From: a virus
Strand: one strand, 5' to 3'
IMG/VR virus record: IMGVR_UViG_3300002040_000067
Coordinates: 1 to 26,267 of that record
Length of the DNA: 26,267 nt
Positions 1 to 23,699 of the stretch are shown piece after piece (within the stretch, counting starts at the first letter, position 1; every line of letters starts with the position of its first letter). The notes below the pieces were generated by a model. The model saw only the letters and a program-made list of their open reading frames with translations, made no database searches and was not told where the DNA came from. A program made the translations under genes and the position numbers.

Positions 1-3000
1 GCATCACTGACGGAACTACCTTGCCCAACAATAATTGCTGATCCCCCATTTCCATTAACACCAGCAAGTTTTCTGCCAACAGTTACAATTCCGATAAAAT
101 TACTATCCGTTGTTGTAGTAATTCCAATCTTTCCTGTTTTTGGAAGAATTGTAATTGGATTATTGATCAACTCTGGAACATAATCGTTACTTTGATCTAA
201 AGGTGGGTTATAGAAATATGCAGTTCCTGAACTTTGAGTAAACTCCGCTTTATAGAGTTTAAATTTTAAATCTTGATTTTGATCGGTTGACCAGATAGAT
301 CCATTTTGAGACTTGAATAGAGATCCAAGAGCAAACTGTTTAGTATAAATGACTTGATCAACATCAGGAAGTTGTTGTGTGTTGACAGTCTTACTTCCCA
401 TAACAGCTGTCCACACTTCATATTCATCACTTTGATCTGATATTAAAACTACTGCATATTCTCTACCAGGTGCCAGGAATATTGGTTCCGGGAATCTAAT
501 ATTTGTAGCAATTTCTCCAGTATCTGATGTTTGAATTAGTTGTGTTTCAACACCATTAACATTACCTCTTGGTCTAAGAATTACTGGTTTTCCAACAGTT
601 GTAAGTGTTGGTGTCCCTAATTGAGTTTCTCTTATTTCCACTCTAATTGGTGCATTGCCACTATCAATTGTAGCAAAAAATACATCTACTGATGTTAAGA
701 ATACTCCGTTCACGTCATCATCAGTATCAATATCAGATTTGACTTGAATATTGCCACCAACAGTAAATGTTTGTGCTAGAGGATCAGTATATTCAACATT
801 AACACGTCTTCTTAGATTCAAATTTACGGTATTTGAAATATTTGTTCTTGTGGTTTCTCTTGTTACTGTTGCTCGGAATCTTAAAACAGTTCCATTTGCG
901 GTATATGATGTTTCTGCAAAAGAAATTGAATTGCTTCCCGGTAAACCTTTATCATTTGTGGAACTAGATGTTAATTTATAAGTCTTTGTTCCTGCACGTA
1001 ATCTAACGTTTGGTGTTGGATCCACATATGGAGGTCTAATAAAGAATGAACCATTAATATCTCCAAAATTATCTGAAATTAATCTAATGTCTTTTACAGA
1101 GGCAATAGCATTACTAGTTTGTCCAACTAATTGCATACCAGACTGAATATATCCAAAATATCTTCCCTGTGCTCTCTTAGAAAGTCCATCAACATCAACA
1201 TTAAGGACATTTGATGTGGAACTATAGATTGTACCTAAAGTTTGAGTTTTATTATATGGATTCTGATTATATGTTAAATCTGGACTTGAAATAGATCCCG
1301 ATTTATGATCTGGTCTACATACTCTAAATTTAATTCTTTCAACACCTCTTACAGTTCCAATAACAGTCTCTCCAACTGTAAATGCATTAGATACATTTTC
1401 AATTTCTACAAGTTTTGGAATTACATCGACCCCACTTCTTCCATCTAAGAATTGATAATATCTTGTGTTTGGTTTTAAATTGGATGCATTAAACTCCACA
1501 TTTCTAGATCTAATGAAAAGCTGATCGTTACTACCCACTACTTCATTACGAATACTGGTATCTACAGTATCAAAAGATCCTCTAGAAGTGCTTGAGGCAC
1601 TGAAAGAGAAATTCCCTGCCTGTTCTGCTTGTCTTCTTCTAGCAGTTCTTCCACTTCCCCCACGAACTCTGACACCGGTTGTAACATTGGAATTTAGATT
1701 ATTAGTTAAATTGACATTATTTGTTCTGGTAACTCCCCTATTAATTGTTCTATCAGGTAATTGAACTGTTCTAGTCCAACTATCGACTGCAGGATCTAAT
1801 GTAACTGTTCCATCATAAACAACAATGTTAAATGGATTTACATTTTCAACTTTAGTAGCAAATGGTTGTTGCAACCAATCAATTTGATCATATGAAAGTG
1901 TTAATACATTTCCCGTTTTTTCTATATTAGAATCTAAAAGTACTAGAGGAGTAGTTGAATACTTATCTGCACTCAAATCTAAATTCTCCGGAGTAAAATT
2001 TTCTAAAGTCGATACTAATGATTCTAATGAATTGCTACTAATATCAGAATTAAGTGTTCTTGATTCTTCGTCAATTAATGTTGTAGATTCAAAAGTATCA
2101 AATCTAGAACTGTCAGAAAAATCATCAACAAAAAATCCACTCTTAAATCTATCAGAACCTTCAGAATCTTTTATCTGTAGTGTTTGAGTATTAACTTCGA
2201 GTAAAGAAAGAGTTGTTACTCTTTCTAAATTTTCTACTCTATCTTCAATGATGCCAATATCTCTCATTGTATATCTTCTATTATCAGTTAGGATAATATT
2301 CGCATCAGATGTGTCATAAAGATATGCTGGATATTCTATAGTTCCAAGTTCTAAAAATTCACCTTTTTTAGTGGGTGGTTTTGGATTTTTTGAAGATACT
2401 CCTTTATCTACAACAAAATTCCCAAGAATATCTAGATAAATTTTATCTATTCTAGGAAGATAGAAACTTTGACTAATTACAGAACCTTCTTCAGGTGCCA
2501 ATAATCTTAATGGGGAAGTATTAAATGCCGAAGTTCTGGCATTAAAATCAAATGGTGATCTATCAATTGTTACTGCGGGATTAAAAACTGCTACTCTAGG
2601 TCTAAAATCTAAAGTATCTGTTGCTCTAATAGACCCTCCAATATTTGGAATATCTTTAGAAAATCTTTCTGCATCATAACTATCTACAGTAAATACATCT
2701 CCAGTATCATTTGTTGGGACAGTGTAATGATCAAAAATTACTATTAAACGTCTTGATGGTTCTTGAGTGTTTTTGTTTCTTACAATTCTCGAATAATCAT
2801 AATACTGATTTTTTTGTCCTCTATTCAACTTAAAAGATTGTGTTATATTACTATAATTTCCATTTGTTATAGAATCAACTTGAGTATTAATTTCAGATTC
2901 TTCAAAAGATACTACTTCTCCAACTGAAAATTTGTTTTCGTTTAAGTAAACAATTCCCAATTTATTATTAGATCCTGTTGAAGGATTTGTGGTGTTGTTA

Positions 3001-5621: not shown

Positions 5622-7202
5622 TTAGAATTCCAGAATAATTTTGATGTCTTCCTTTTGCCTAGAGTCTCTCGTAACAAGAGAACGATTGTCAATGTAAATA
5701 ACATCTCCCGTATTTTTATTTATCTCAGGATCGGCAAGTCCACCTGAGAATGTAACTCCTAAATTAATTATTTTAGATCCAATTGTAGTTGTAATTCCTC
5801 CAAAACCTGTATCAATTGATGCTGAAAAAGTTCCATCAGAAATTGAATTTGATGAAGATTCAAAACTAACAACATTGGCCTTACTAGTTACATCGTTTCT
5901 GTCGGTTTGATCAAAAGTATTGGCAAAGTTTAAAGATCTATCTTGATAATATTTCAATACTTTAGTATCAGCATCATATGATGCTATATATCCTCTTGCA
6001 ATACTGCCATCTGAGGTTTCCTGCTCAATTTTATTTCCAATAGTAGCAGTAATATCTGATGTTAATTTTATTGATCCTAATGACGAATACTCACTTGCAC
6101 TATAAAGTGTTGATGAATTATATGTTTCTGGATTTTTTATAATTCCAACCTGAGAAAATTTAGTGTTTACTGGAAAATCTCTTGTAGAGTCATCAAATCT
6201 GGTATATGCGAGAACTTTATCTGCTCCCAACTCTTCATATATGTTGTATCCATGACCTCTAGATGGAGGTATAATTGGAATTAATTTTGATGAATTTTGT
6301 ATCAGATCATCTGTTGCATGTCCAAAATCAACAATTCCAAAAGTATATCCACTGCCACCAGAAACAACTGTTGTTTTAATAATTGTGCCAGAAGTATCGA
6401 CTTCTATATTTACTTTTGCTCCAGATCCATCCCCTTTAATATTATATGTGCCTGATCTATATAAACCATCACCTCCCCCATCTTCAATATAAACATATTT
6501 TATTTGATTGTTATTTATTGTAGAATCACCAGAATCTCTTATAGATTGAATTTGGAAATCATTTGATGTTGACCAATCACTTGGAAGAACAATATATTCA
6601 GTAGAATCAAATTTAATAATATCACTTGGAGATATAGTAAACAAATACTTCCAAAGATATTCATCCCCGCTTGTTCCTGCAGCAGATACTTCCAAATCTG
6701 TAAATGTTGGTTCGTCTTGAGAAGTATTTCCAGTTAAGTTTACTGTTCCTCCAATACTACCATGAGATCCATTATAAATGCATATGTAAACTTTAAAGTC
6801 ACTATTAACCACATAATAATTGCTATCATAAAGTCTTGCACTTTGTGATATTGGGGTTAGATTTCCAACACTATAATCATGTCGATACATATCATAACGG
6901 GTATTAACAGTCCAATTGACCTTTTTTATAACTCTTCTAATATTTGAACTAGTTAATTTTTTTCCAAATAGTGCTGTATTTCTATAATGACTCAAATACT
7001 GCTGATTATCAATAGGACTTGGGGGATTTGAATTAGTTTCCTCTCCCCAAGTAGTACTCCTACCAAATCCCACAGGACTAGAAATTGTTCCTGGATTTGA
7101 AAGTCCCAAAAATACATAATAATTATTATCAGCACTCAATACAGACTCTACAAAATTATTGGCATTAGCAATCCTAAATTGATCTGTTACTATAGCGGAC
7201 AT
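5622..7202 (-). CDS. 8: Baseplate wedge protein gp8
   Basis: This 526-aa protein resembles cyanophage baseplate wedge gp8; T4 gp8 is shorter, about 334 aa. Recognisable parts are the start MSAIVTDQFRI, a conserved block at residues 88-140 (IRRVIKKVNW, YDMYRHDYS, YYVVNSDFKVYICIYN) and residues 163-198 (DEPTFTDLE, YLWKYLFTISPSDIIKF). In T4, gp8 forms dimers that link wedges in the inner baseplate. The extra length includes a glycine-rich insertion, GDGSGA at 257-262 and GGSGYTF at 282-288, of the same kind that recurs in the giant neighbouring protein. The ATG is preceded by CGTGTAAT without a Shine-Dalgarno. A perfect late promoter box lies 17 bases upstream, so gene 8 can be transcribed apart from the 12-kb gene before it. 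The identification rests on memory of the family and on synteny with genes 25 and 6. Confidence 0.85.
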   Translation of the reverse strand: MSAIVTDQFRIANANNFVESVLSADNNYYVFLGLSNPGTISSPVGFGRSTTWGEETNSNPPSPIDNQQYLSHYRNTALFGKKLTSSNIRRVIKKVNWTVNTRYDMYRHDYSVGNLTPISQSARLYDSNYYVVNSDFKVYICIYNGSHGSIGGTVNLTGNTSQDEPTFTDLEVSAAGTSGDEYLWKYLFTISPSDIIKFDSTEYIVLPSDWSTSNDFQIQSIRDSGDSTINNNQIKYVYIEDGGGDGLYRSGTYNIKGDGSGAKVNIEVDTSGTIIKTTVVSGGSGYTFGIVDFGHATDDLIQNSSKLIPIIPPSRGHGYNIYEELGADKVLAYTRFDDSTRDFPVNTKFSQVGIIKNPETYNSSTLYSASEYSSLGSIKLTSDITATIGNKIEQETSDGSIARGYIASYDADTKVLKYYQDRSLNFANTFDQTDRNDVTSKANVVSFESSSNSISDGTFSASIDTGFGGITTTIGSKIINLGVTFSGGLADPEINKNTGDVIYIDNRSLVTRDSRQKEDIKIILEF

Positions 7203-7232: not shown

Positions 7233-10200
7233 TTAATTATCTTTAATCTCAGGAAGTGCTCCTGTCAATCTAATACCTTCACCTCTTCTCTGAATTGTTG
7301 GAAAAGTTGATAATCCAACATCGACAGTTTTACCAGAAACATTAATGGAAATTGGAGCAGAAGATCTAGTAATTGAAGTAAATAATCCCCAAGAAAATTC
7401 TCCCACATGATTACCACTAGTAGAAAGTCCTGTTACATCAGTTCCAGAATCAATATTGCAGGTAACAATGCCAACAAAATCACCATCACGGCTTAATTCA
7501 TGGATATAGTAAATATTATCTAAGAATGTAGTTCCAATACCAACTATGGCAGTATTTGAACTATCTACCGATGTAACACCAGATCCAATTATAGTATTCT
7601 TAACAAATATTGGATATCCAATCTTTAAATCATCTCCAAAATTTGTTGCTCTCCTAAGATAAAACTTAAGAGCTTGTGGATGTCCACCAGATCCGGAAGT
7701 AGGTTCTATTCCTGTTATAATTCCCGAAAATCCTTTAATAAATCCAATTCCATTAAGATTTTCAGTATTTGAATCTGGGAGGGATATAATTGTATTAGGT
7801 GCTATTGTATATCCAAATCCAGGATTTGTTATTGTTGTTCCAGTAAGTGTTCCTCCAGATCCTACTGTTGCAGTTGCAGTGGCAGTTGTTCCCACACCCA
7901 CATTTTGTGGATCATCGATTTGTAAAGGATTTTGGAATTTAATATTGACAGTAGATCCAACATATCCACTTCCAAAATTTTCTGGATCAATAGTAAGAGA
8001 AGAGACAGTTCCACCAGCACCGATTGTTGCAGTTATATTAGCAGGAGAAGGATCTACTTTACCATCGACAATAAGACCCGATAGATTATTAAATTCAAGA
8101 GAACTATCTAGACTATAACTAAAATTACTTACATCATCAACAAAAATACTAGAATCGGAGGTTGTAATATCTTTAATAATTTTTGCAGTCGGATAAATTT
8201 GAGCAATAATAGATTGTCTTGTCTTATAGACAAACTCTCCATTAATTCTTCTATCAGTTTTTTGTTTTGTCCATGACATTGGTTTCAAATTGACTTCATC
8301 AACACCTTGATCCACATATAAATTCGTCTCAAATTTATCCGAAAAAGATACATCAAAAATTGTTCTTTGATTTTGAGTAATTGTTTCTGCAATAGTATCA
8401 TTTTTAAATATTCTGATATCATCACCTCTTTCTAATGATGGAATGATATTATTTACTTGTATGTCATCTACACCTCTAGTTCCTCTATAGTAGAAAATAT
8501 CAATTTTATCTTCTACTTTTGGTGGGACAGTAAATGAAAATGAAGTTCCTCCATCAAATATATAAGAGACACCAGGTTCTTGAATGATACCATTAATAAT
8601 AACAATTAATATATTTTCAAGTTCTATAGTAGAATCTTCAGGTTTTTCAAAACTCAATATAGATCCATTATAATTAAGTGGGAATATTAATCTCACCCCA
8701 TCTTGGAAGTTTTTAATAGAATCAATATAATCAAGTTCTCCAAACTGCCAAGAAGCAAAATTATCACTGAAAGTATCTAAAACTGTAAACTGATATTCTG
8801 AGATTGGAGATGCTAAATCTTTAGCAGTAACAAGTCCAACTGGTGTAAATACATCACCTTTTCTGAATGAATACCCAGATCTTGTTATAGAGAAACCATT
8901 AACTGCAAAATAAGTTGATCCAATACCTGTTGAAGAATTTGCATTAACATCAATATTCAATAGCAATCCAGTCCCAGTATCAGTTGTTAATCCAACACCA
9001 ACTCTAGAAACACCTACTACTTCAAGATTTTCGTATGTTGGTTCAGAAACAAATATTTCAGTTTGATCAGAATAATCAGATCCGCCATTTGATACATTAA
9101 ATGTTAATGTTCCTCCCGTTCCTACAGGTGAGGCGGTTATTACTGCACCAGAACCATCCCCAGTTGGATCGAAAATAGAAACCCCAATTGATACTATGGA
9201 ATTATATCCAGACCCAACATTATCAGTGGTGCCAATACCAATACTATTTTGAATAACACCACCACTTATGATTGCGGTAACTGCTGCACCAACAAGAGGT
9301 GCGTAACCAAGTCCTCCAGTTGATCCCAAAGAAACAATAAGTCCTCCTCTAGGAATTTGGTTTTGATTTAGATCAGACTCAGAAATCAAAATACTAGTAG
9401 GATCAGTTATATCTGTTCTAATACCACTGAATACAATAGATGATATTCCCGTAGGTGATAATTGTTCAATAATACTGAAATTATTTGCTGGATTATTTTC
9501 AGTTGTTGGGGTTTGAAATATTCCATTAATAAATACGAGTCCATTTCCACCAATTGTTCCGACACCACTAGTATTTGCCCCACCAACAGTGAGTGTAAAT
9601 GTTCTACCAATTCCATTGAATCCATCAGAAATGTCATCATAAACTTCATTTGTAGTATAATCCTTCCTAAGAAATACTCTACCAGTAAAGTCTGATGTTT
9701 CAAATATTAAATTGTTATTAGTTCTCGTAATATTAGAATTTCCTCTAGGTGCTTTTGTAAAGAAAATACTATCATCAACAATATTATAAGATCCTTTGTA
9801 AATTCTAGATGATGTACCGTCTGTATGAGATGTTGCAGATGATCCAACAAATGCTCTCTCAACTTCTACCAATTTTTCAGATCCAGTATTTGTTATTGGT
9901 CCGACATTTGTTGTCCCTAAACCAACATTGATAATATTCATATATTCTTCATCAATTTTCAATATATTGAGAGGAGATATGCTGGTAATATCACTCAAAG
10001 TAAAAATAGTTGCTTCTGTTGAGATGCCTCCACCATTTCCGGAAAGTGTTTGAGTAATATTAGTAAAAGAGATTGGATACTGAACAATATTATCTATAGT
10101 AATAATAACCTTTTCATTTTTCTTTGCCATCGCAAATACGTGAGCATTTCCTTCACCTATAGATGTAAATGTAACTGCTGATCCTGCTTTAGTTGTTGAT

Positions 10201-13200
10201 ATTGAAAAACTATTATCAGTATTAACAATTGCAAAAACTTGTGAAGGAAGTTCTTCATTTATAGAACCATTTTTATACATCATTGGAGTCGATCCAACTC
10301 CAACAAAAGTCGATTTTGGAGTGTATATTAATTCTTCATTATCACTAAATAAATGATCATTTATCGAAAATTCACCTGTTGAAAGATTGAGAATATCACT
10401 ATCTGATGGGTTAAATGATTTGGCAAAAATTGGAATGGTATTTGATCTTAATATAAAATTACTCTTATTAATCCTTTCCCCATTAATTGCTAGATATGAA
10501 GAAGTGTTTACAGTTTCGATAGAGTTTCCATACAAAAGATTTGGTGCTTGATTAATCAAATCAACCGTAGTATATAAGCACTCACTAAATGATTTGATTT
10601 CTAAATCACCACTAAAATTAGAATCTGGGTAGAATTTTAATAATACATTACTTCCATTATATTCTCCACCAAATGTTCCAATACCAATTGCAGTATCAAA
10701 TGTTCCGATACCAGAAGATGAAAGAAATGCTGATTGTTGTGTATAAATGTTAGTTCCATCTTGAACCATCATTATTTGTTGAATGGATTTGGTAGTTCCT
10801 ATTCCAACCTCAACTAAAGATCTTGCAGAATCAAAATTATCTTTATTTAATATTAAGAAGGAGGTAGAAACTCCAGAAGTAGTCCTAGAAAAACTTGATT
10901 CATAAAATGCTGATCTTTCATTACCTTCTAGTTGATTTGGTAAAATATATCTAAACGTTCCAACGCCAACAGACGTAGATCCAAAACCAACTATACGTGT
11001 TTTGACAATTACATCTTCATCAGTATCATTAATATATTTTAAATTAAATAATCCAGAATCTATATCTGCACCGAAAGAACCTATAAAATTATTTGATCTT
11101 GAAAAATTACCAGTATCAAAATAATACTCTGAAATACTAGTATTAGATCCATCATGAGTTACATATAACTCAACAAAGTTCATTTCATTACTAACTTCTT
11201 TATAAACCTGTGCATTAACATGGAAAGAGGTAATATCATCAGTTGAAACACCAATAATATTACTTGTAGTATCCACCAGGCATATTTGACTGCGAGAAGT
11301 TAAATCAACAAATCCTATTGATGTTGTACCCAATCCAATAATTTGATTATCGAATTTTTTATCAATATACTTAATATCATACTCGGTATTATAAGGATCT
11401 TTAGGAGTAAATCTTAAATACTTAGTATCAAATTCGTCAGTTTCTATTGAAAAATTGCCATATTGTTCACCACTTGCTGAAGTTAAACCAGTTCCTATAT
11501 TAACTAAGGATTGTTTTTCTAAAATAGCAATATTACTATTAGTTGGATTATTTAAGAATACTAAACTTGTTAGTTGTATTTCATTTTTGTTACTTATGTC
11601 AGAAACTTTAAATAGATAGTTATTATAAGAATTTGCATTATCAATCTTTAATATGTCTTTATATGTAAAAGGTTCATCCTCAGAATTAGAGAATTGGTTT
11701 GAAATGTCATCTATTTTTAAAACAACATTAGATATAGATTCTTGATAATTTGTAAGTTTTTTATTTTTTAATTTTATAAATTTTGATTTATTTTGTATAA
11801 TATTTACATCTTTCACAAAAGCAAAATTATTGATAGTATCAATTCTCCTTTCTTCAATATAATCTTTTATAATAGTAGTTTCATCAGAAAAAGTAGTAAT
11901 TCCAATATTTTCATCTTCATCAGAAATAATTTCTGTATCTGAGAAATTTTTAGTTCCGATGGAATGAACTAAACTATTGATAGGTGTTCTAATATCATTC
12001 CATTGTTGTCTACTCTTAATAGAATATGATAAATTTTGATAATAATCATTATCTTGAAGAACTTGGAAATCTTCACTCAATTTCCCAGTTTCATTTCTCC
12101 AACCTTCAGATATTCTATTAGAAAATTTAATATCAAATATTCCACTATAATTTTCAATAGATTCTATAGTGGCAATGTTTCCTGTAGTTTTACCTGTGAT
12201 TATTTCATTGGGAGAAAGATTGTAAGAACCAATTAGTTTAATATAACCAGAATTATCATAACCAACAACCTCAAGATCTCTATCAACACCATTAGACAAT
12301 ATTGTTTCACCGATTTCAAATTCTGATGGTGTTAATGAAATTGAGAATGTAGGATAATTATTTTTAGATACAATGGTTCCAAAAGAATCTTGAATTGTTT
12401 TAGCAATTCCTGTGTTTGTTCCTAGACCGAAAATGCTAATAGTTACTTGATCATCGTTAATTCCGCCAAATAATCTTTTGTTTTTATAATCAGTTACTTT
12501 AAAGAATCTATACCCATAGTCACTGGAATTAAATCCTTCACCATCTGTTCCGAATTTTTGAATACCTTCAATAAAAACTTGCTCATCCACCACAAAAACA
12601 TCTGTAGAAAATCCTACCGGTGGTGTTGTTATAATACAAGTAAAAATACCAGTATTTGATGATTGAACTTCTTTAATGCTAACTCCATTACTATTATTGA
12701 TAGTAAAAAGTTCTGCCGATTGATCAGAGATTCCCTTGGGGGAATTATCGACAAATAAACTGGTGATTGAATTTCCAGTAATTTTTGGTATTATCAATCC
12801 ATTATTTAATACATTTCTTGTAATATTATTCACAACAATAATTTCTGGTGGTGAAGTATATCCAGATCCACCAGAAATTATTGTTACAATACCAACTGTA
12901 TTTGAATTCTTTAATTTAATTTTTGGAGACAAGAAAGCATGTGGCCTTAAAGTTTTATCGGAAGAATATTGAAAATTTTCGTTAACTAATTTTGTTTCTT
13001 TAATTTTCCCCATACTATTGGAATTTAAAGAAACAGATAAATTTTTTCCATTTGCCGTATTTACGTTTAAAAATGAGGGCAATTTTTTATATCCAAATCC
13101 ACTAGATATAATTCTAACCGCATTTACTGGACCAGAAGATGATGTTGAAGTTGTCGTATATTCTAAATTATCACATTCTGCGGAAATATATTCTATTTTT

Positions 13201-16200
13201 TCTGGAGATTCATTTAGAGAAATTTGAAAAGTAGTTGACCCTATACCAGAAATATTATAAGTTTTATTATAAACACTATCACTAAATAAAATTTCTGAAA
13301 AATTATTTACATCTTTATCAGAAGAACTTATATAACCAGATTTTTCTAAAGAATAATAAAGTCTTTTTGGTAATTCGGAACTGTAATTAATAGTAAAAGA
13401 AGCATTAGTAGATATTCCTACTGTTCCTACACCAATTGTACTAAAAGTTTCTGTAGAACCTGTTGACACAAACTCATTATTAAAATCTTGATCATAATAA
13501 AGTTTAAATTCATACCCAGATAAAGAAGAATCTGTTAAATCAAATACTAAATTATTATTTTTGACTGATTGTAATTGTGGATTAATTAGTGATATTATTT
13601 GTGAAGAACCTCCCGTAGAAGCAAAACTTACAACTGTTGGTGGATTTTGTTGAGAATCTATTAAAGTCTCACAGAGATTAATTGTATTTCTATTAATTTT
13701 ATAAACAAAATATTCATTATATCCATTATCCTCATAAAGAACTTTATCACCAGTTACTAATTCATGATTGGTAATTGTAATTTCATTAGTTGTAGTATTA
13801 ATTCCTGTAGAGTTGAATCCAATTGGATTGACTACAATATTATCAATTTCTGATTTATAAAGAACACGAACCGCTGTTGAGGTTCCAATACCCACTGAAA
13901 GATTTGGTTGAACATTCATAGTGATTAAATCACCATTAGATAATCCATGTGAATATGAAGTTGATATTGAAACTGTTGAGATAATTTTCTCAATTTTTCC
14001 AAGTTTTTGTATGTTATTAGTATCGAAATAATAATTATCAGCATTATCACCTCCAGATCTAAAGAAAACTTCATCGGAAGTGAGAGAAGTTTTTATCCCA
14101 ATAGTGCTTGGAGACTTATTGACAGCATATACTGGTTCTGTTGTTGGAATAGGAAATGGCGTTCCTGTAGGAGATGTTGAAATTAAAATGGCACCAGTAT
14201 TGCCATTTTGACTAAATGTAAGTTTCTGATTAGTTTGAAGAGAATGATCTTTAATACTAATTCTTTGTGTGGGAATAGATCCAGAAATTACCTCTTGACC
14301 AAACGGATATGACACTTCATATCCCAATCCTGCCGTTGTTCCAAAACCAACAGATTCTTGTGGATTAAAATAAAATCTATTGTTTACTTTAGAGACAAAA
14401 TAATCTACGTTTTGATTAATTGTAAATGTTTTTGGTTTGAATGATACTGCTGTTCCAACAGTATGTGCAATTCCAGAATCACCTCTTTTTACTCTAAAAA
14501 TATTTTTATTTGGATATATATTTAAAATTTCTAAAGTTTCAGTTCCAATCTCAATACTACTGCCAACAGAAATTCCAGATGGAATTTGCGTCACATAAAT
14601 TTCTGTTGTTGCAGCACCAGTTCCTCCAATCTCTGTAGTTATTCCTATAGTTGGGATAATTGGGACCTTAATTTTAAATGAACCATTTAAAATTGAAAGA
14701 TTTGAAGTACTAAATCCGGATATCACGACAATATCATTGTCTAACAATGTATGAAAAGGAGAAATTGTTACAGTTACTTTATTATCTCCACTTAGAGTAA
14801 ATATTGCATCATTATATACTTCATATGAAGTATCAATTCTATCAACATCCCTCCCCTTTAAGGATGAGACAATAGCACTAATTCCTCCACCTTCAGTATT
14901 GTCATTGTTGAAATTCAATGATTCGTTTACTTTGTAATTATCTCCACTATTGATAACCGAGATATTAGAAATTGTTCCTTCACTGATAGATTCGACTATT
15001 ACTTTTTGTCTTTTGATGTCATCATTTTCGACAATAAAATCATTACCGGCATTCTTTTCTAAAATTTTATAACCCAAAGTATTTCTAGAAAGAGATGAAT
15101 TATTAAAATTAAATTTTTGATTTAAACTTTTATTTTCCTCAATCGTATTTGATCGAAAAGAATTTCCAATGAAATATGGAAACTGGGGTTCTTTTGTTAT
15201 TTGATCTATAACTGCGTAATATGCATAGACTCCATTTGGAAAATCATTAGTCTTTGAAAATCTTCCATTATTTCTATCAAGATCACCATTTTGAGGATTA
15301 TAACTATAATCTTCATTAAAAAATCCTAAAGGAAACTCAGATTCTGATGGTCTATCATAAACATTTGTTATACTTTGTGTATAACTAGATGTCATAGTTT
15401 TAATACCAGAATTTATATTGTTTGGGTCTGGAGTTGAATATGGACCATAGATAGGATTTCCATCATATGCCCATCCAATGATATTAGATAAAGTCTCACC
15501 AGTATCTTCAAATGAAGATTGCAAATCTTCAAAATATCCAGTTACTGAATATGATAATTCATCATTCTCATCTTTTAATATTTCAGTTTGTTTTGTAGAT
15601 AATTTTTCGACTTGATTGACAGTAAGTTCTCTTATAGATGCATCTAAAATTTGATCGCTACCACTAGAAACTACTTTAATTTTAGTAGAAGTTGAATATC
15701 CTATTCCTGGATTAATAATATTAACATCGGTAATTTTTTCATTAGTAACTATTGCTCTTAATTTAGCACCACTTCCTGCATTAGTTGGGTCTAAAACGAT
15801 TAAATCTGGAGTAGAAAAATATTCAAGTCCACCAAATTGTATATTTACTTCATTTATAGATCCATTAGATATGATAGGATTTATTTGGCCATCTCTACCA
15901 TTTTTAACTGTAAATGATGGGGATTTTTCAAAATTGAGAATATTCGATCCGTATCCAGTTCCTGGTTCATAAACATAAATTTGTTCAATAGATCCTTTTA
16001 CAACTGGTGTTACTTCTATAGATTGAATTTGTGTTGTTGTTCCAATACCAACTGATGTAAACTCAATATTTGCTCTTATATCTGGATATTTAAACTCTTG
16101 GAATCCACTCCCTACGGTGTTTAATTCTTCATATTTTTTTCTTTCATAATTTGTAATATTTGTTCCTCCAATACCAGCATCACATAACCTAAAAGAATTT

Positions 16201-19200
16201 TCGTCAATTTTTAAAACATAATATTGATTTTCAGTTGTAATTCCTGATATTTTACTTGTTTCATAACTATACTCTACAATTTCACCATTATTAAATCCAT
16301 GATTTTTAAAGTTGATAGAGTTTTGTGTTGTGGTGATTCCTGCCGGTTTAACTAAAAGTTTTCTATTTGTAAATGAACCCCCATCAATTACTTTTATTTC
16401 TGAAATAGTATTATTAGAAAATTCGGTTAAAAATTTATGAGTTCCACTTAGTGAAGTTGTTGCAAAAGAAACTTGATTAGTCTCATTTAAATAATCATTA
16501 AAATTATCGAATAACGTTATTGTTGTGTTATTATCAATTTTTGCAAAATAATCTTTATTATCAGATAATTGCGAGATTCCTAATCCAATACTAACACTCT
16601 CATTACCATTATTTCTATAAGTAATTTTTTGACCATTTGAAAAATTATGATCATTTAAAAATGTTAGTTGATTGGTGGTTGTACTTATACCACCACCCTG
16701 TGTAGTTGCTCTTGCATCAAATAATACTTCCCTTCTTCTTTTAATTAATACTGGTTCAAAAAATCCTCCAGATCTATTTCCACCAGTAACATCAACCGAT
16801 AATACTTCTTTAATATCAAAATTTTGCTTATCTACAATAATATCTGTTAATGTTCCAGTTATAACCGGTTGGACTAAAGATGTTATTCCGATACCGGATG
16901 ATACTTGTATTTTTGGAACATTAACAACATCAAAATTATGCCCACTATTTAAAATTTTAATATTTTTAATCGGACCATAATAAATTTTATCAAAAGTTTT
17001 ATAATTTGATATTTCAACTCCATTAATCAACATTCCTATTGATCCTGGAATTGTTTCCTCTAAATTTCCATTTTTAATATTAGGATTGAGAGAAAATTTC
17101 TTAAGAATTTTTTGGGGATTTAATATTTCTGATTTTTGAGAATATAAAGTAAAAGTATGAGTTCCTAATACTGGAGAAGATGCTGCTCCTTCAGATGATA
17201 CTGATTTGAATTGAACGGCATTTAGATTAGAATCCAAAAAAGAAGGAGAAGTATAAAGTTTTATTTTTTTCTTATTACTACCAGATAAAACCTTAATATA
17301 ATAAGAACCTTCTTCCAATCCATTTAAAGGATCACCAGACGATCTATATTGAATTCTTTCTCCACTTATAAATGGAACAGGAGTACCAAAAAGGATAGTA
17401 GAGTATAGTCCAGTGACCTCATCATAATCAACAAGAGGGTCTTCAGAAGAAGGTGAAATTGATGATGAGTTAATTGATTTTGTTATCTGATATGAATAAG
17501 AATTTGTAAGACCATTTCCCCAGGATGGAAGTGAATTTGATGCTATATATGCAAAATTATCATCATCAACATACATGTTCTGAACATCAGAAATAATGCT
17601 ATTATTCTGATATTTGAAATTAACAGAGGTACTATTTGCTTTATTAATTTTTCTTCTTAACTTTATAGACTGTTCCTCATTTGGAGAGAAAGAGCTTAGA
17701 TTTGATATAAAAACAGAATTGGTTATAATATCTGAATTTACATACGGAGTGTCTGAAGTATCTGTAGGATATATTATATCGTTTGTTTTTTCATCTATAA
17801 ATTCTACTCGATCACCCTTCTTTAATTGAGACCTATCGACAGAAGTTTGTAATATAACACCAATTGGAGACGAACCTCCTATAAAACTATCAATTTTTAT
17901 TGAAGAACTTGTGTTATAGATCCAAGAATTTGCAAAAATTTCTCTATAGGTTTTACTTTGTTCTGGGTTTTCAATTAAAGTTCCAATACTCTTAATTTTT
18001 AAAATCTGGCCTTCATCTACAGAAATTGAATCTGATTTTTGGATAAAATCTGAAAGAACTCCCCTCAATCTAAGAACAACTTTTTTCGATACATCTCCAT
18101 TTTCATAAGAAAAATATGTATCATCCGAAAAAATATCTTCCTCAGAAGTAATTGTATTTCCGACACCGGAGCATCCCAAAAATTGATTGACACTTTTATC
18201 TGAATATATAATAGTATTATTTTTGGAATATATTGTTCCTGTCTGACCAAATCCAATTGTGGAATCTACAGATATTACAGAAGCACCAACACTAACATTC
18301 TCTAAAATTTTTGAGTTGGGGGTAATTGTGAAATTGCCCTGAACATTGCTATTATCACTATATCCAACAAATAAACCTATTTTAAAATATTGTTTTTGCT
18401 CTCTTGTAAAGATTTCAACTGAAGATATTGAAGCGTATACTGCAGAATCTTTTGATTTAGTTAATGTCTGTCCTACTATTTTTGTAATATCTCCGCTGAT
18501 AGATTCAGCAACACATACTTCTTTTCTAATAAAATCTGCATTTGATGATTTTATTAGATATTCTTCAAGATTAATTACTTTAGGAGTTTCTCCAAATAAT
18601 ACATTAAATAATATTCTGAATGAATCATTAGTACCTTTTGATTCATAAAAAGATCTTGATGATTTTATAAAGTTTCCGGCATCTATTCTAGAGTCAAAAA
18701 TTTTATCTTCAAATCCTGGAGTATATGAAGATTTTAATTTTTTATAAAATTCCTTTAAAAATAAAGAACTTAAATTCTGTACTGAGGAATTTGAAGTGTG
18801 GGAATCAATAGTTGTATTTGAAAATACTAACTCTTCTTCATTTAAATCTTGATGATAACTAGTAATTCCACTAAAACCACGAACACATCCAGTAAAAGTA
18901 TTTGTAGTGATTCCAGTATATGTTATAATTTCATCATCAATCTTTAATAAACCATATTGTTTAGGAAATCCTTTTGTATTAGAAACCTGAATTACATCAT
19001 CATCTAATCCGACATCAGAGGATAAATTTATTGACCCTACAACTACTTCTGGAGTTAGGTTATCTACTTTTAAATATTGATCTAAATTTTCTGCAATATC
19101 AACAGGACCTCCCTGATATTCTTGAGAAATATAATATTGCTTTAAAAAATCTACTGCTTTTGGACTTTCACCTAGGACATACTCCGGCAATTGATTAGAA

Positions 19201-19247
19201 ATTATGTCCTGAATCTTGATTCTAGATTCAATTCCAGTTTGTATCAT
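7233..19247 (-). CDS. Giant multi-repeat virion structural protein at the gene 7 position
   Basis: One uninterrupted frame of 4004 codons, 46% of the window. It starts one base after the gene 6 stop (TAATATG, with AGAAAG as weak ribosome site) and ends 30 bases before gene 8. The N-terminus (residues 1-65, with QLPEYVLGESPKAVDFLKQYY) looks like a folded docking segment. Beyond it are long beta-type, Ser/Thr/Asn/Gly-rich stretches with at least three repeat families: H-x-F/L-x-x-G modules, E-I-x-x-x...RG modules and GSGY modules. A YHYH-like domain lies at residues 1258-1363 (GWAYDGNPIYGPY, then YAYY and FPYFIGNSF). Residues about 3540-3590 hold an IINGIIQEPGVSYIFDGG block that I associate with cyanophage tail proteins. 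I see no signal peptide, transmembrane segment or clear enzyme site. T4 gp7 is 1032 aa and sits between gp6 and gp8, so this protein may be its positional replacement in the wedge, a fibre, or both. That role is inference. Confidence 0.85.
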   Translation of the reverse strand: MIQTGIESRIKIQDIISNQLPEYVLGESPKAVDFLKQYYISQEYQGGPVDIAENLDQYLKVDNLTPEVVVGSINLSSDVGLDDDVIQVSNTKGFPKQYGLLKIDDEIITYTGITTNTFTGCVRGFSGITSYHQDLNEEELVFSNTTIDSHTSNSSVQNLSSLFLKEFYKKLKSSYTPGFEDKIFDSRIDAGNFIKSSRSFYESKGTNDSFRILFNVLFGETPKVINLEEYLIKSSNADFIRKEVCVAESISGDITKIVGQTLTKSKDSAVYASISSVEIFTREQKQYFKIGLFVGYSDNSNVQGNFTITPNSKILENVSVGASVISVDSTIGFGQTGTIYSKNNTIIYSDKSVNQFLGCSGVGNTITSEEDIFSDDTYFSYENGDVSKKVVLRLRGVLSDFIQKSDSISVDEGQILKIKSIGTLIENPEQSKTYREIFANSWIYNTSSSIKIDSFIGGSSPIGVILQTSVDRSQLKKGDRVEFIDEKTNDIIYPTDTSDTPYVNSDIITNSVFISNLSSFSPNEEQSIKLRRKINKANSTSVNFKYQNNSIISDVQNMYVDDDNFAYIASNSLPSWGNGLTNSYSYQITKSINSSSISPSSEDPLVDYDEVTGLYSTILFGTPVPFISGERIQYRSSGDPLNGLEEGSYYIKVLSGSNKKKIKLYTSPSFLDSNLNAVQFKSVSSEGAASSPVLGTHTFTLYSQKSEILNPQKILKKFSLNPNIKNGNLEETIPGSIGMLINGVEISNYKTFDKIYYGPIKNIKILNSGHNFDVVNVPKIQVSSGIGITSLVQPVITGTLTDIIVDKQNFDIKEVLSVDVTGGNRSGGFFEPVLIKRRREVLFDARATTQGGGISTTTNQLTFLNDHNFSNGQKITYRNNGNESVSIGLGISQLSDNKDYFAKIDNNTTITLFDNFNDYLNETNQVSFATTSLSGTHKFLTEFSNNTISEIKVIDGGSFTNRKLLVKPAGITTTQNSINFKNHGFNNGEIVEYSYETSKISGITTENQYYVLKIDENSFRLCDAGIGGTNITNYERKKYEELNTVGSGFQEFKYPDIRANIEFTSVGIGTTTQIQSIEVTPVVKGSIEQIYVYEPGTGYGSNILNFEKSPSFTVKNGRDGQINPIISNGSINEVNIQFGGLEYFSTPDLIVLDPTNAGSGAKLRAIVTNEKITDVNIINPGIGYSTSTKIKVVSSGSDQILDASIRELTVNQVEKLSTKQTEILKDENDELSYSVTGYFEDLQSSFEDTGETLSNIIGWAYDGNPIYGPYSTPDPNNINSGIKTMTSSYTQSITNVYDRPSESEFPLGFFNEDYSYNPQNGDLDRNNGRFSKTNDFPNGVYAYYAVIDQITKEPQFPYFIGNSFRSNTIEENKSLNQKFNFNNSSLSRNTLGYKILEKNAGNDFIVENDDIKRQKVIVESISEGTISNISVINSGDNYKVNESLNFNNDNTEGGGISAIVSSLKGRDVDRIDTSYEVYNDAIFTLSGDNKVTVTISPFHTLLDNDIVVISGFSTSNLSILNGSFKIKVPIIPTIGITTEIGGTGAATTEIYVTQIPSGISVGSSIEIGTETLEILNIYPNKNIFRVKRGDSGIAHTVGTAVSFKPKTFTINQNVDYFVSKVNNRFYFNPQESVGFGTTAGLGYEVSYPFGQEVISGSIPTQRISIKDHSLQTNQKLTFSQNGNTGAILISTSPTGTPFPIPTTEPVYAVNKSPSTIGIKTSLTSDEVFFRSGGDNADNYYFDTNNIQKLGKIEKIISTVSISTSYSHGLSNGDLITMNVQPNLSVGIGTSTAVRVLYKSEIDNIVVNPIGFNSTGINTTTNEITITNHELVTGDKVLYEDNGYNEYFVYKINRNTINLCETLIDSQQNPPTVVSFASTGGSSQIISLINPQLQSVKNNNLVFDLTDSSLSGYEFKLYYDQDFNNEFVSTGSTETFSTIGVGTVGISTNASFTINYSSELPKRLYYSLEKSGYISSSDKDVNNFSEILFSDSVYNKTYNISGIGSTTFQISLNESPEKIEYISAECDNLEYTTTSTSSSGPVNAVRIISSGFGYKKLPSFLNVNTANGKNLSVSLNSNSMGKIKETKLVNENFQYSSDKTLRPHAFLSPKIKLKNSNTVGIVTIISGGSGYTSPPEIIVVNNITRNVLNNGLIIPKITGNSITSLFVDNSPKGISDQSAELFTINNSNGVSIKEVQSSNTGIFTCIITTPPVGFSTDVFVVDEQVFIEGIQKFGTDGEGFNSSDYGYRFFKVTDYKNKRLFGGINDDQVTISIFGLGTNTGIAKTIQDSFGTIVSKNNYPTFSISLTPSEFEIGETILSNGVDRDLEVVGYDNSGYIKLIGSYNLSPNEIITGKTTGNIATIESIENYSGIFDIKFSNRISEGWRNETGKLSEDFQVLQDNDYYQNLSYSIKSRQQWNDIRTPINSLVHSIGTKNFSDTEIISDEDENIGITTFSDETTIIKDYIEERRIDTINNFAFVKDVNIIQNKSKFIKLKNKKLTNYQESISNVVLKIDDISNQFSNSEDEPFTYKDILKIDNANSYNNYLFKVSDISNKNEIQLTSLVFLNNPTNSNIAILEKQSLVNIGTGLTSASGEQYGNFSIETDEFDTKYLRFTPKDPYNTEYDIKYIDKKFDNQIIGLGTTSIGFVDLTSRSQICLVDTTSNIIGVSTDDITSFHVNAQVYKEVSNEMNFVELYVTHDGSNTSISEYYFDTGNFSRSNNFIGSFGADIDSGLFNLKYINDTDEDVIVKTRIVGFGSTSVGVGTFRYILPNQLEGNERSAFYESSFSRTTSGVSTSFLILNKDNFDSARSLVEVGIGTTKSIQQIMMVQDGTNIYTQQSAFLSSSGIGTFDTAIGIGTFGGEYNGSNVLLKFYPDSNFSGDLEIKSFSECLYTTVDLINQAPNLLYGNSIETVNTSSYLAINGERINKSNFILRSNTIPIFAKSFNPSDSDILNLSTGEFSINDHLFSDNEELIYTPKSTFVGVGSTPMMYKNGSINEELPSQVFAIVNTDNSFSISTTKAGSAVTFTSIGEGNAHVFAMAKKNEKVIITIDNIVQYPISFTNITQTLSGNGGGISTEATIFTLSDITSISPLNILKIDEEYMNIINVGLGTTNVGPITNTGSEKLVEVERAFVGSSATSHTDGTSSRIYKGSYNIVDDSIFFTKAPRGNSNITRTNNNLIFETSDFTGRVFLRKDYTTNEVYDDISDGFNGIGRTFTLTVGGANTSGVGTIGGNGLVFINGIFQTPTTENNPANNFSIIEQLSPTGISSIVFSGIRTDITDPTSILISESDLNQNQIPRGGLIVSLGSTGGLGYAPLVGAAVTAIISGGVIQNSIGIGTTDNVGSGYNSIVSIGVSIFDPTGDGSGAVITASPVGTGGTLTFNVSNGGSDYSDQTEIFVSEPTYENLEVVGVSRVGVGLTTDTGTGLLLNIDVNANSSTGIGSTYFAVNGFSITRSGYSFRKGDVFTPVGLVTAKDLASPISEYQFTVLDTFSDNFASWQFGELDYIDSIKNFQDGVRLIFPLNYNGSILSFEKPEDSTIELENILIVIINGIIQEPGVSYIFDGGTSFSFTVPPKVEDKIDIFYYRGTRGVDDIQVNNIIPSLERGDDIRIFKNDTIAETITQNQRTIFDVSFSDKFETNLYVDQGVDEVNLKPMSWTKQKTDRRINGEFVYKTRQSIIAQIYPTAKIIKDITTSDSSIFVDDVSNFSYSLDSSLEFNNLSGLIVDGKVDPSPANITATIGAGGTVSSLTIDPENFGSGYVGSTVNIKFQNPLQIDDPQNVGVGTTATATATVGSGGTLTGTTITNPGFGYTIAPNTIISLPDSNTENLNGIGFIKGFSGIITGIEPTSGSGGHPQALKFYLRRATNFGDDLKIGYPIFVKNTIIGSGVTSVDSSNTAIVGIGTTFLDNIYYIHELSRDGDFVGIVTCNIDSGTDVTGLSTSGNHVGEFSWGLFTSITRSSAPISINVSGKTVDVGLSTFPTIQRRGEGIRLTGALPEIKDN
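7770..16015 (-). repeat. Glycine-rich GSGY modules
   Basis: The giant protein repeats a unit of the form GSGA/GSGG, a short beta strand, then [NS]-[PG]-G-x-G-Y-x-x-x-P and a further strand. Copies are near residues 1078-1111 (YEPGTGYGS), 1151-1196 (GSGAKLRAIV, NPGIGYSTS), about 2020 (SSGFGYKKLP), about 2075 (SGGSGYTSPP), 3356-3402 (GDGSGAVITA, NGGSDYSD), 3726-3774 (ENFGSGYVGS) and 3783-3826 (NPGFGYTIAP). The span given covers the outermost copies. Gene 8 carries one more copy. Confidence 0.65.
10300..17421 (-). repeat. Degenerate protein repeat family, H-x-[FL]-x-x-[GN] modules
   Basis: Within the giant protein a module recurs with the core hydrophobic-x-x-H-x-[FL]-x-x-[GN]-[DEQ]-x-[ILV]-x-[YF], often followed about 20-30 residues later by YF/YYV-x-K-I-D/N and a final beta strand. 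Approximate residue positions of copies are 609-672 (lacks the His), 856-919 (HNFSNGQKITY), 974-1029 (HGFNNGEIVEY), 1489-1524 (HTLLDNDIVVI), 1660-1687 (HSLQTNQKLTF), 1756-1782 (HGLSNGDLITM), 1820-1860 (HELVTGDKVLY) and 2957-2982 (HLFSDNEELIY). Nucleotide identity between copies is low, so these are old duplications at protein level. They are probably beta-sandwich or beta-hairpin units. Confidence 0.7.
15160..15476 (-). other. YHYH-like domain inside the giant protein, histidines replaced
   Basis: Residues 1258-1270 read GWAYDGNPIYGPY, close to the signature of the YHYH domain. About 70 residues later, at 1341-1344, the place where the family normally has Y-H-Y-H reads YAYY, followed by FPYFIGNSF at 1355-1363 in place of the usual F/Y-P-Y-x-x-G. 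The frame and the flanking signatures are kept while both histidines are lost, which suggests the fold is retained without a histidine-dependent function. Confidence 0.65.
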
Positions 19248-19248: not shown

Positions 19249-21165
19249 TTACTTTCTGATTAAACTTCCGTTTGAATAACTTGATGTGTAAAAATCCCTA
19301 TTAAAGGATGTACCTGATATTTCATCCCCAGATGAAATTACATCCTTAATCATATTTATTTCACTTGCTGCGATGTCAAAATTAAGATAAAGGTCTCTTA
19401 ACCCAACAACATCATTCGATTCTGGAAATGCTTGTATTTCTATAATGTTATTTGGTTTGACAGTTGATACGACATTTATTGTTCCCAAATTAATCTCACC
19501 CTTTATATAATCAACTGTTCCTGCAGATTTAGAAATAACTCTTATAGTTCCATCTGATAAATTTTTAACTATAGAAAGAAGACCAGTTTTTTTATCCTTA
19601 TTTGGTATATCAGTCAAATATACAACATCACTCTCACCAGATATATTAAATCCAGTAGATTTAATATTTTTTCCATCTTCAGACACATGAAATTGATTTC
19701 CAAAACATAATTCATACTGTGCAAATTGATTTAGTAAAGTAAATAAATTTCTTCTTATTGTTACCCTAGTAATATTTGATGTAATAGAAGTATCAGTATT
19801 ATCGATAATTCTTAAAACTTGACTATATCTAAATCTTCCTCCAAATTTATTGAGATTAGTTGATTTGGAATAGTTTGTAATTGAATTAATTACCTTCGAC
19901 TTTAAATTTTCTGGTGTTGACACCATAGAATCATTATAATAGATAAATGATTCAGTCTCAATATACAAAATTTTAAGATCTACAATTTTTTGATTGATTC
20001 CAGATATTGAATATTGTTTAAGTTGAGATAAAATTCTAGATTTATTAAACTCGGATACTAAAAATCCATTTTTAGGTTTGATTGAAATTTGAACAGTTCC
20101 AAATTTGGGGGGATCTAGTTCTTCACCACCGACAACAGATACAGATTCAGTATCTGGGTATATTGTTTTGACAATTGATTTGTAATCTCTTCCAGTGACT
20201 GCTCTATTTTGTGCAGAATATATTCTTGGGGCAAAATATTTAACAGAATCTATAGATTCAATATCTCCACCATTTTGAGATGATTGATTTGCAATAATAG
20301 TAAATGGTTCTGGAGAAACTGATGTTCCATTACTATCGACTATATTACCAGAAAATGCGAATATATTAGCACCATTACCATCTTTTCCATCAGTAGTAAG
20401 ATAGTTTACAGTAATTATTTCTCCAGTTTCTAATTTTTTTCCAATCAAACCGTCACCGAACAAGATCTCATATTTTTCATCTTGAACTTCTTGAATCAAA
20501 TAAACAAGGGAATCTCCAGTAATATTAGTAATATTATTAATTAATTTATATTCTGTTCCTAATCCAGTATCTGCTTCCTTCTTTACATATACTTTTATTG
20601 TTGAGGTATCAATAAATGAATTATTCAAAACAAATCTTTGATCTAATGATGAATCAACTATGAATTTTTTCTCAAGGAATGTTCCCTCATAAATTTCTAT
20701 ATTTTCAAATATTGCCGATACTCTAGTAGTAGAATCTATATTCTCAATATTAGTTGCTCTTTGTATGTCTTCTAGTATTGAGAATGTATATGAAGTATCA
20801 TTTGCATTTCCAACACAAACTAAACCCTTCTTCAATGTCAACGTTGGTGAAGAAGACCCACTTACATTCGTTATAAGGGTTACAGATGCCTTCGCAGCAC
20901 TTCTTGACTTGGGAACATACCCAATATTCCTAGCAAGAGAAACAACGTTCTCACGAAGTGTTGCAGAGTCTAGAAAAGACTCATTCACAACCATGTTTGA
21001 GTTGAATGCTGTTATGTAAGTATTATATGCTAAAGTATCAATCAATACTGAAAAATTAGAACCCTCAAAGTCAATTCCCGTGAAATCAGAATTTGCACGT
21101 AGATAATCTTTGATAGATTCTTTTATTTGATCGAAATCTAAATTAGTGAATTTTGTAAAAGGCAT
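19249..21165 (-). CDS. 6: Baseplate wedge protein gp6
   Basis: 638 aa, close to T4 gp6 (660 aa). The N-terminal region at residues 6-96 (FTNLDFDQIKESIKDYL, GSNFSVLIDTLAYNTY, VNESFLDSATLRENVVSLARNIGYVPKSRSAAKA) is the classical start of T4 gp6 and related baseplate J-like proteins. The middle (residues about 310-350, SVKYFAPRIYSAQNRAVTGRDY) is also typical of J-like proteins. In T4, gp6 dimers make the continuous ring that ties the six wedges together. The gene begins one base after the gene 25 stop, and the ribosome site AAGG falls inside the end of gene 25 (ACAAGGTAATATG), which indicates coupled translation. It is followed one base later by the giant gene. Transcription is expected from the late promoter ahead of gene 25. 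Confidence 0.93.
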   Translation of the reverse strand: MPFTKFTNLDFDQIKESIKDYLRANSDFTGIDFEGSNFSVLIDTLAYNTYITAFNSNMVVNESFLDSATLRENVVSLARNIGYVPKSRSAAKASVTLITNVSGSSSPTLTLKKGLVCVGNANDTSYTFSILEDIQRATNIENIDSTTRVSAIFENIEIYEGTFLEKKFIVDSSLDQRFVLNNSFIDTSTIKVYVKKEADTGLGTEYKLINNITNITGDSLVYLIQEVQDEKYEILFGDGLIGKKLETGEIITVNYLTTDGKDGNGANIFAFSGNIVDSNGTSVSPEPFTIIANQSSQNGGDIESIDSVKYFAPRIYSAQNRAVTGRDYKSIVKTIYPDTESVSVVGGEELDPPKFGTVQISIKPKNGFLVSEFNKSRILSQLKQYSISGINQKIVDLKILYIETESFIYYNDSMVSTPENLKSKVINSITNYSKSTNLNKFGGRFRYSQVLRIIDNTDTSITSNITRVTIRRNLFTLLNQFAQYELCFGNQFHVSEDGKNIKSTGFNISGESDVVYLTDIPNKDKKTGLLSIVKNLSDGTIRVISKSAGTVDYIKGEINLGTINVVSTVKPNNIIEIQAFPESNDVVGLRDLYLNFDIAASEINMIKDVISSGDEISGTSFNRDFYTSSYSNGSLIRK

Positions 21166-21166: not shown

Positions 21167-21568
21167 TTACCTTGTTGCCTCTAAAAGGAACGAATATTCT
21201 TGTGTAGGAAACTCTTGACCAATAATATCAAATATTACGGTAACATCAAATGCATTACGATCTGGTCTTGGTAGAACCTCGACTTGTAAATTATCAACTC
21301 TTGGTTCAAAATTATTGATGGATATTTGAATTTGATCACTAATTACTGAAGCTGTACCAAAATCAACAAACTCAAATAAACTTCCCCTTACGTCAGAACC
21401 AAATATTGAATTAAAAAACTTTTCAGTAGGTATTGTTTGAACAATATTTCTCACAGATCTACGAATTGCTGCCTCATTTTTGAGAACAGGTATATCTTTA
21501 GTAATTGGATGAGGTTCAAATGATAAACTAATATCTTTAAATGACCGTGATATCCTCTGAATTGCCAT
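21167..21568 (-). CDS. 25: Baseplate wedge protein gp25
   Basis: 133 aa, the same size as T4 gp25 (132 aa). Family features visible are the stretch at residues 30-57 (NEAAIRRSVRNIVQTIPTEK, then FFNSIFGSDVRG), the NNFEPRVD motif at about residues 86-93, and a beta-rich C-terminus. The E-P-R motif is the conserved core of the gp25/TssE sheath-nucleation family. In T4, gp25 joins gp6 and gp53 in the inner baseplate and helps start sheath assembly. The ATG follows CTTTAACA with no evident Shine-Dalgarno. It is the first gene after a perfect late promoter box 22 bases upstream, so it heads the 25-6-giant transcript. No gp53 or gp5 homologue lies next to it in the window. Confidence 0.95.
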   Translation of the reverse strand: MAIQRISRSFKDISLSFEPHPITKDIPVLKNEAAIRRSVRNIVQTIPTEKFFNSIFGSDVRGSLFEFVDFGTASVISDQIQISINNFEPRVDNLQVEVLPRPDRNAFDVTVIFDIIGQEFPTQEYSFLLEATR

Positions 21569-21831: not shown

Positions 21832-21839
21832 TATTTATT
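21832..21839 (-). promoter_or_regulatory. Possible weak late promoter ahead of the 58-aa gene
   Basis: The minus strand reads AATAAATA, one base off TATAAATA, at the end of the 238-aa gene and 54 bases before the 58-aa ATG. The surrounding A/T run makes a chance match quite possible. Confidence 0.25.
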
Positions 21840-22551: not shown

Positions 22552-22579
22552 ATAGTGTCAATAAAACTACAATTATATA

Positions 22580-22732: not shown

Positions 22733-22737
22733 AATAA

Positions 22738-23661: not shown

Positions 23662-23699
23662 AACTGTAAATGAACTTCGTCACTATCATAACACTCTAT

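Follow-up and report, generated by a model that had tools for sequence, protein, structure and literature searches.

The 26,267-base IMG/VR virus record analysed here in full (IMGVR_UViG_3300002040_000067, the window) contains a single gene of 4004 codons between the genes for the baseplate wedge proteins gp6 and gp8. From sequence comparisons, we consider the encoded protein, which we call the giant, to be very probably the gp7 of this phage, with the wedge core of gp7 apparently present in two pieces. What appears to be new is the split-core architecture and a size range of 419 to 6,619 amino acids (aa) at one locus; no description of either was found in the open-licence PMC literature searched. 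The protein itself is not new, since its family has already been named (P-SSM2 'gp7', PHROG 2885) and giant relatives in virions are in print. T4-like phages that infect marine cyanobacteria and SAR11 occur widely, and the construction of their outer baseplate is of interest because g10, g11, and g12 are, according to a review, tail genes that cyanomyoviruses lack (PMC2984593); the Syn9 record labels one gene gp10-like despite that listing of g10. The same literature search returned no cryo-electron microscopy structure of a marine cyanomyovirus baseplate. The map of the 4004-residue protein given below marks the wedge stretches, the insertion site, and the stretches to examine for host contact.

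The gene order 25-6-giant-8-DUF4815 along the gene direction, which the first-pass annotation of this DNA had set beside the T4 order 6-7-8-9-10, holds when the neighbors are named by Pfam and PHROGs (Table 1), as does the T4 order itself when read from AF158101. The giant occupies the slot between gp6 and gp8, as gp7 does in T4, and the 1-base gap to gp6 is real, with the first base of the giant at 19247 and the gp6 ORF (open reading frame) ending at 19249. Its reported length of roughly four times that of T4 gp7 is more exactly nearly four times (4004 vs 1032 aa). The match to PHROG 2885 covers residues 2-3337 (E 0). In five annotated Kyanoviridae records, a giant directly follows gp25 and gp6 (P-SSM2, 5,195 aa; S-SRM01, 3,895; S-T4, 4,749; ACG-2014f, 4,225; S-CAM7, 4,314), and the next gene is gp8 or 'baseplate wedge' in four of them and carries no name in S-T4. 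GenBank labels on the relatives read gp7, baseplate wedge initiator, or baseplate wedge subunit. We kept 80 of 590 related viral contigs found, and in all 80 the homologous frame stays free of stops as far as the available DNA extends (up to 3,747 codons). This conservation, together with the annotated 5,195-aa version in P-SSM2 in the same order, argues that the long frame is not due to chance. The P-SSM2 gp7 ('baseplate wedge initiator') belongs to the same family, is 53% identical to the giant over residues 2-400, and has both core halves, as the giant does; the two differ in length mainly in the tail.

The first-pass annotation saw no detectable similarity between the giant and gp7, which proved incorrect for the N-terminal part of the protein. 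In BLASTP of residues 1-516 against T4 gp7, a single anchored match pairs 185-220 with 718-754 (E 7e-4), and hhalign of a profile of 77 N-terminal sequences against five gp7s aligns 191-292 with T4 725-813 (E 8.5e-6), both E-values being those of single comparisons. T4 gp7 in turn matches PHROG 2885, the family of the giant, at profile positions 196-224 (E 1.3e-4), as well as its own PHROG 964. The N2 helices and the start of domain V (T4 718-813) are thereby detected in the giant by sequence. For the core-bundle domain (T4 643-689), a tentative connection runs through short relatives, in that their family profile aligns 11-132 with T4 648-758 and the N1 model of the window matches the short family. 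When this profile of 35 short relatives was searched against 177,635 PDB sequences, two matches at E <= 10 were returned, both named gp7 (KP1, E 2.5e-5, at 731-833; T4, E 1.1e-3). A PDB search with the single sequence of residues 1-516 had returned three matches (best E 0.27), which we set aside as chance. No counterpart of T4 gp7 1-640 was detected in the giant. The earlier proposal that the giant replaces gp7 as the wedge backbone thus stands as to place, and the giant has the gp7 core as well; the part that falls is the supposed lack of similarity to gp7.

The second half of the core is tied to T4 through short proteins from the same locus (419, 587, and 874 aa), because these match both families. 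A search of phage records with T4 gp7 at E <= 0.01 listed 60 of 1,434 records, and the weakest among the matches listed was Desulfovibrio phage 7757, a record without annotation. Its 587-aa ORF, whose neighbors resemble gp6, gp8, and DUF4815 proteins by eye, aligns with gp7 644-897 (E 2.4e-8) and matches both PHROG 964, the T4 gp7 family, at 644-830 (E 4e-6) and PHROG 2885 at 2398-2467 (E 4.8e-20); the XG4 protein matches PHROG 2885 at 2409-2464. A tblastn search with the Desulfovibrio-phage protein listed 60 of 1,330 records, and among these the T4-type phages are matched via its residues 9-289 and the cyanophages via residues near 12-135 or 160-317, often at two places per record. We then compared the protein with a profile built from 35 giants, those of the window, five named phages, and 29 loci at 3,390 aa or longer. 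It matches this profile at giant residues 7-57, 193-280, and 2299-2536 in succession (E 0.014, 0.0046, and 8.4e-6; scores 32.9, 36.7, and 59.2). One reversed decoy scored 20.8, and the highest score among 20 shuffles was 28.6. A search of viral contigs with the same protein for related loci gave no match. By way of this bridge, the segment after domain V (T4 about 862-912) is detected in the giant, and we hold with good confidence, on these alignments, that its core is split into an N half at about residues 1-408 and a C part at 2381-2450, in that order.

It could be argued that the N half alone is gp7 and that residues 2381-2450 resemble the short proteins through a recurrent beta module, so that the core would not be split. 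Small beta modules do recur in the giant and its neighboring proteins, and a longer C model weakly matches the Mosig VrlC ORF (E 0.012). However, a 70-residue C model from which the module is mostly excluded matches gp7-position ORFs only, in 9 of 9 loci; each protein has a single C match, which invariably follows the N half; and PHROG 2885 places the C part independently, at the positions given above. We regard the unsplit core as quite unlikely.

The split core is not particular to the window. Models of giant residues 1-320 and 2290-2460 were run on 15 gp7-position proteins, and 13 of them contain both halves in order at E <= 1e-3, from XG4 (419 aa), Desulfovibrio (587), Mosig (874), and S-CRM01 (1,454) up to Syn9 (6,076). 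The two exceptions are the first frame of S-SKS1, with the N half only, and T4 gp7, with N2 at E 1.2e-5 and the C half at E 0.15. S-SZBM1_208 (6,619 aa), added after the 15-protein set, also carries the core, and proteins at the gp7 locus accordingly span the range stated at the outset. Of 261 viral loci, 177 have the two halves in a single ORF, with N preceding C, and most of the others are cut: giants 36/80 (44 run off the DNA), Mosig-like 79/80, S-PM2-like 45/80 (35 run off the DNA), and XG4-like 17/21 (four ORFs cut at the 5' end). The gap between the halves is 1,953-2,234 aa in the giants, 297-342 in Mosig-like, 1,355-1,597 in S-PM2-like, and 348-957 in XG4-like proteins. The S-SKS1 gene (HQ633071, locus about 18,000 to 28,200) is partly annotated and consists of three overlapping frames of 710, 1,601, and 1,113 codons, reflecting sequencing errors or a truly interrupted gene. 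A Mosig-type search listed 20 of 426 phage records, and among the matches listed are phages of Methylophilales, Stenotrophomonas, Sinorhizobium, Pseudomonas, and Acidovorax, indicating that marine cyanophages are not the only carriers of this gp7 type.

The core is also specific to the gp7-position gene. Short core models (residues 1-64, 159-236, and 2381-2450), run on 918 ORFs from nine loci, match the gp7-position ORF in 9/9, with one stray match to an 82-aa ORF (E 0.0098). With the longer models (711 ORFs, ten loci), the gp7-position ORF is the best match for N in 10/10 and for C in 9/10 (T4 missing); the lower matches include a 1,387-aa Syn9 neighbor for N (E 2.3e-7), a protein with the same small barrel module, and, for C, the Mosig VrlC ORF mentioned above. 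In all of 11 phage records searched with the short-family profile, the gp7-position gene is found to contain the core; 11 of the 37 profile matches fall outside that gene, at profile positions 153-545, one of them in the Mosig VrlC ORF, and none of these is at N1 or N2. A T4-gp7 profile matches the gp7-position gene only, in five of the 11 records, and gives no match in the other six. In these 11 related phages, the N half is found solely in the gp7-position gene and the profile searches find no second gp7 elsewhere, in keeping with the gp7 role proposed for the giant in the first-pass annotation. S-SZBM1_205 (locus 16260-18107, 615 aa), although labeled 'baseplate wedge initiator', shares the small barrel module only and lacks the core.

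An independent library agrees in part. Three proteins, those of Mosig (E 2.6e-11), XG4, and the Desulfovibrio phage, exceed the curated cut-off (27 bits) of the Pfam family PF23786 (Baseplate_wedge); S-CRM01 and S-PM2 stay below it, and for S-RSM4 no match is reported. On ten whole records the family points to the gp7-position ORF in nine, none over cut-off, and to nothing in T4; S-SRM01 has one extra weak match elsewhere (E 0.037). In Syn9, PF23786 positions 177-221 and 235-280 sit 8.2 kb apart within one ORF.

We also compared predicted structures. Foldseek with an AlphaFold2 (AF2) model of window residues 1-420 places 9f4a (E 3.7e-4) and 5iv5 (E 3e-3) first among 698 PDB hits; we take these chains, of about 1,000 residues, as gp7 because of their length and the PDB result of the short-family profile. 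VIA aligns model residues 236..408 with gp7 760..853 (5iv5, Z 9.3, 92 residues, 3.3 Å; 9f4a, Z 9.1), although unrelated barrel chains score similarly with either. The barrel at 309-376 dominates the comparison and resembles F1-ATPase barrels, and two unrelated phage chains outrank gp7. If the VIA alignment is right, then insert 3 starts near residue 409. For the 874-aa relative, whose model is poor, the top three Foldseek hits are T4 or KP1 chains taken as gp7 (E 1.5e-4, 6.6e-4, and 7.8e-3; next 0.16), with VIA Z of 10.7, 10.5, and 7.9 (next row 6.7). The fold matches of the window model are support, not proof, and we give those of the 874-aa model little weight.

Several results weigh against identifying the giant as gp7. 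The window has no PF23786 match over cut-off, residues 1-420 scoring 16.1 bits, and a profile of the same residues finds nothing in the PDB at E <= 10. The T4-specific Pfam gp7 domains (helical, V, and VI) exceed their cut-offs in 0 of 10 non-T4 records; PF21428 itself, PF21427 (domain V, T4 766-861), and PF21456 (domain VI, T4 920-1012) each find none of the ten, and these searches produced one stray match (E 0.09). Domain VI may be confined to relatives of T4. The direct match of the C part to T4 gp7 is weak (E 0.15 and 0.37, with no match in a third test), and the second stretch of KP1 gp7, 862-912, scores 3.8 bits only. The window model is middling (mean predicted local distance difference test score, pLDDT, 69; predicted template modeling score, pTM, 0.38; 62 sequences), the Foldseek template modeling scores for the 9f4a and 5iv5 chains are low (0.13-0.14), and the model of the 874-aa relative has a pLDDT of 49 and a pTM of 0.26. 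These failures of the T4-specific domain models, together with a Pfam search of the window protein that reports the YHYH domain alone, favor a rival reading of the giant as an unrelated fibre or shell protein that has taken the place and role of gp7. The profile and bridge matches of the N half speak against such a substitution, which we judge very unlikely.

A published account states that gp7 is absent and apparently substituted by VrlC in pelagi- and cyanomyophages (PMC7029224). The DUF4815 protein of the window stands at the position of the gene named VrlC/VriC in S-SRM01, S-T4, and Mosig. We considered whether VrlC is the giant and rejected this, as annotated records place VrlC at the DUF4815 site, after gp8 (in S-T4, after an unnamed gene). 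That the protein after gp8 substitutes for gp7 is favored by that statement and by weak matches of the Mosig VrlC ORF to the longer C-half model and to the short-family profile (153-192, E 0.001). Against it, the N1, N2, and C models find no match at E <= 0.01 in the DUF4815 ORF of the window (partial) or in the Mosig and S-SRM01 VrlC/VriC ORFs, and Mosig has an 874-aa gp7-position protein of its own that matches PF23786, with a homologue in HTVC008M (residues 1-851, E 1e-71). The substitution is scarcely credible to us, and, judging from their sequences, the two pelagiphages examined, Mosig and HTVC008M, do not support it. The HTVC008M homologue (NC_020484 33435-36476) is labeled 'head closure Hc2' in RefSeq; this label on a gp7 looks mistaken or module-driven, because PHROGs 460 and 3465 of that name match gp7-position proteins.

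The absence of the giant from virions, which the first-pass annotation would have counted against its idea, is not what has been reported for relatives. S-SZBM1_208, which adjoins wedge genes 209 and 210, is detected in virions with 71 peptides, 13.5% coverage, and an exponentially modified protein abundance index (emPAI) of 0.41 vs 0.23 for 209 (PMC9146016); for S-CREM2 ORF122 (about 1,937 aa), 91 unique peptides are reported from virions, at 27.2% coverage (PMC10665884). The S-CREM2 virion table has its highest count, 450 unique peptides, for ORF124, a hypothetical protein after the gp8-place ORF, which suggests that an abundant outer part may be encoded at the DUF4815/VrlC place. Size, and coverage values reported with no map along the chain, would leave room for cleavage of the giant after translation into parts that act as separate proteins, which we think unlikely.

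Table 1. Genes of the wedge region and segments of the giant, with window coordinates; residues are those of the giant.
Feature	Position	Strand	Remarks
DUF4815 protein	3..5615	(-)	PF16075; runs off window end
gp8 baseplate wedge protein	5622..7202	(-)	PF09215, PHROG 438
Giant gp7-position gene	7233..19247	(-)	4004 codons + stop, ATG start; PHROG 2885 'baseplate wedge subunit', 3465 bits
C-terminal tail, residues about 2451-4004	7236..11897	(-)	no Pfam match
C part of core, residues 2381-2450	11898..12107	(-)	probable counterpart of T4 gp7 about 862-912
Insert 3, residues about 409-2380	12108..18023	(-)	beta-rich, separates core halves; approximate limits
YHYH domain PF14240, residues 1248-1347	15207..15506	(-)	within insert 3; E 7.4e-23
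Domain V counterpart, residues 237-408	18024..18539	(-)	hhalign and VIA; exact limits uncertain
Small beta barrel, residues 309-376	18120..18323	(-)	interrupts domain V counterpart
N2, residues 159-236	18540..18773	(-)	helices matching T4 gp7 about 718-758
Insert 1, residues 65-158	18774..19055	(-)	small beta module separating N1 and N2
N1, residues 1-64	19056..19247	(-)	predicted helices; putative counterpart of gp7 helical (core bundle) domain
gp6 baseplate wedge protein	19249..21165	(-)	PF21379, PHROG 219
gp25 baseplate wedge protein	21167..21568	(-)	PF04965, PHROG 261

In the resulting map, the core does not appear as one continuous stretch: about 2,000 residues separate its halves, and a further 1,550 or so follow. 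The N1 helices are seen in the AF2 model at low confidence. Like T4 gp7, the giant is encoded between gp6 and gp8, and it has a homologous core (corresponding to about gp7 643-912), but the T4 core is contiguous and C-terminal, whereas that of the giant is N-terminal and apparently split, and domain VI, like gp7 1-640, was not detected in the giant. The short proteins of XG4 (a Pseudoalteromonas phage), Desulfovibrio phage 7757, and the pelagiphage Mosig likewise have an N-terminal core with the C half after it, separated by tens to a few hundred residues rather than about 2,000; in their own records they are unannotated or 'hypothetical'. Across 34 relatives in the window clade, median identity is 0.78 for N1, 0.69 for N2, 0.56 for domain V, and 0.58 for the C part. 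Conservation of the last 600 residues is poorly judged, since most loci end near residue 3,737. S-PM2 and S-RSM4, like the window, have a YHYH domain within insert 3.

A precedent for such an arrangement is Vibrio phage XM1, whose gp17 (242 aa) is described as a T4 gp7 ortholog with N-terminal helices in a bundle with two gp16 chains and a loop and C-terminal tail that hold the spikes (PMC10457771). By that description, gp17 and the giant would be alike in having N-terminal bundle helices and a loop and tail carrying outer parts, although gp17 is much smaller. By analogy with T4 and XM1, one giant copy per wedge would bind two gp6 chains through N1 and N2. With both of its ends anchored at the wedge, insert 3 would project in a loop, forming a large arm or rim rich in beta structure, and the tail would depart from the same wedge site. 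In a single chain, the insert and the tail could provide part of what gp10, gp11, gp12, and the outer part of gp7 contribute in T4, and they could couple host contact to sheath contraction. A combined wedge and fibre in one protein, as the first-pass annotation imagined, is plausible. We put the placement of insert 3 and the tail in the baseplate periphery, by the same comparison, at an even chance. A broader idea, which we offer tentatively, is that the gp7 core serves as an insertion scaffold, in which the site after domain V takes from tens to about 2,800 residues. By extension, and just as tentatively, much of the outer baseplate in marine cyanophages may be fused in one chain with both anchors in the wedge, and the arm might, with the same reserve, work the contraction trigger directly, as a lever.

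Insert 3 and the tail may instead be mainly host-recognition arms or adhesins rather than a structural rim, a possibility that we rate somewhat short of even. Across phages, the length of the insert varies between about 300 and more than 2,700 aa, and the XM1 spikes provide a precedent. Unlike a fast-changing adhesin, however, insert 3 is of nearly constant length across the 34 relatives, and its median identity (0.46-0.53) lies a little below that of domain V.

Further repeats were noted along the chain. Residues about 78-134 and 317-371, in the N-terminal region of the giant, are two copies of a small beta-barrel module that is also found in the tails of S-PM2 and S-RSM4 and in neighboring proteins of Syn9, S-PM2, and S-SZBM1. 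The motif GxGY occurs nine times in residues 1086-3841, vs a shuffle mean of 1.3 (maximum 6 of 500), and a hidden Markov model (HMM) built from it finds eight copies of a repeated beta element. The count of a second motif is not enriched in the giant (5 vs a shuffle mean of 3.1). The genes upstream of gp25 (21835-25888, minus strand) match PHROG 3704 (labeled ferredoxin), PHROG 1574, with a weak glycosyltransferase match as well, DUF6267, and Kyanoviridae Gp96, the last of which fits a Kyanoviridae origin for the window.
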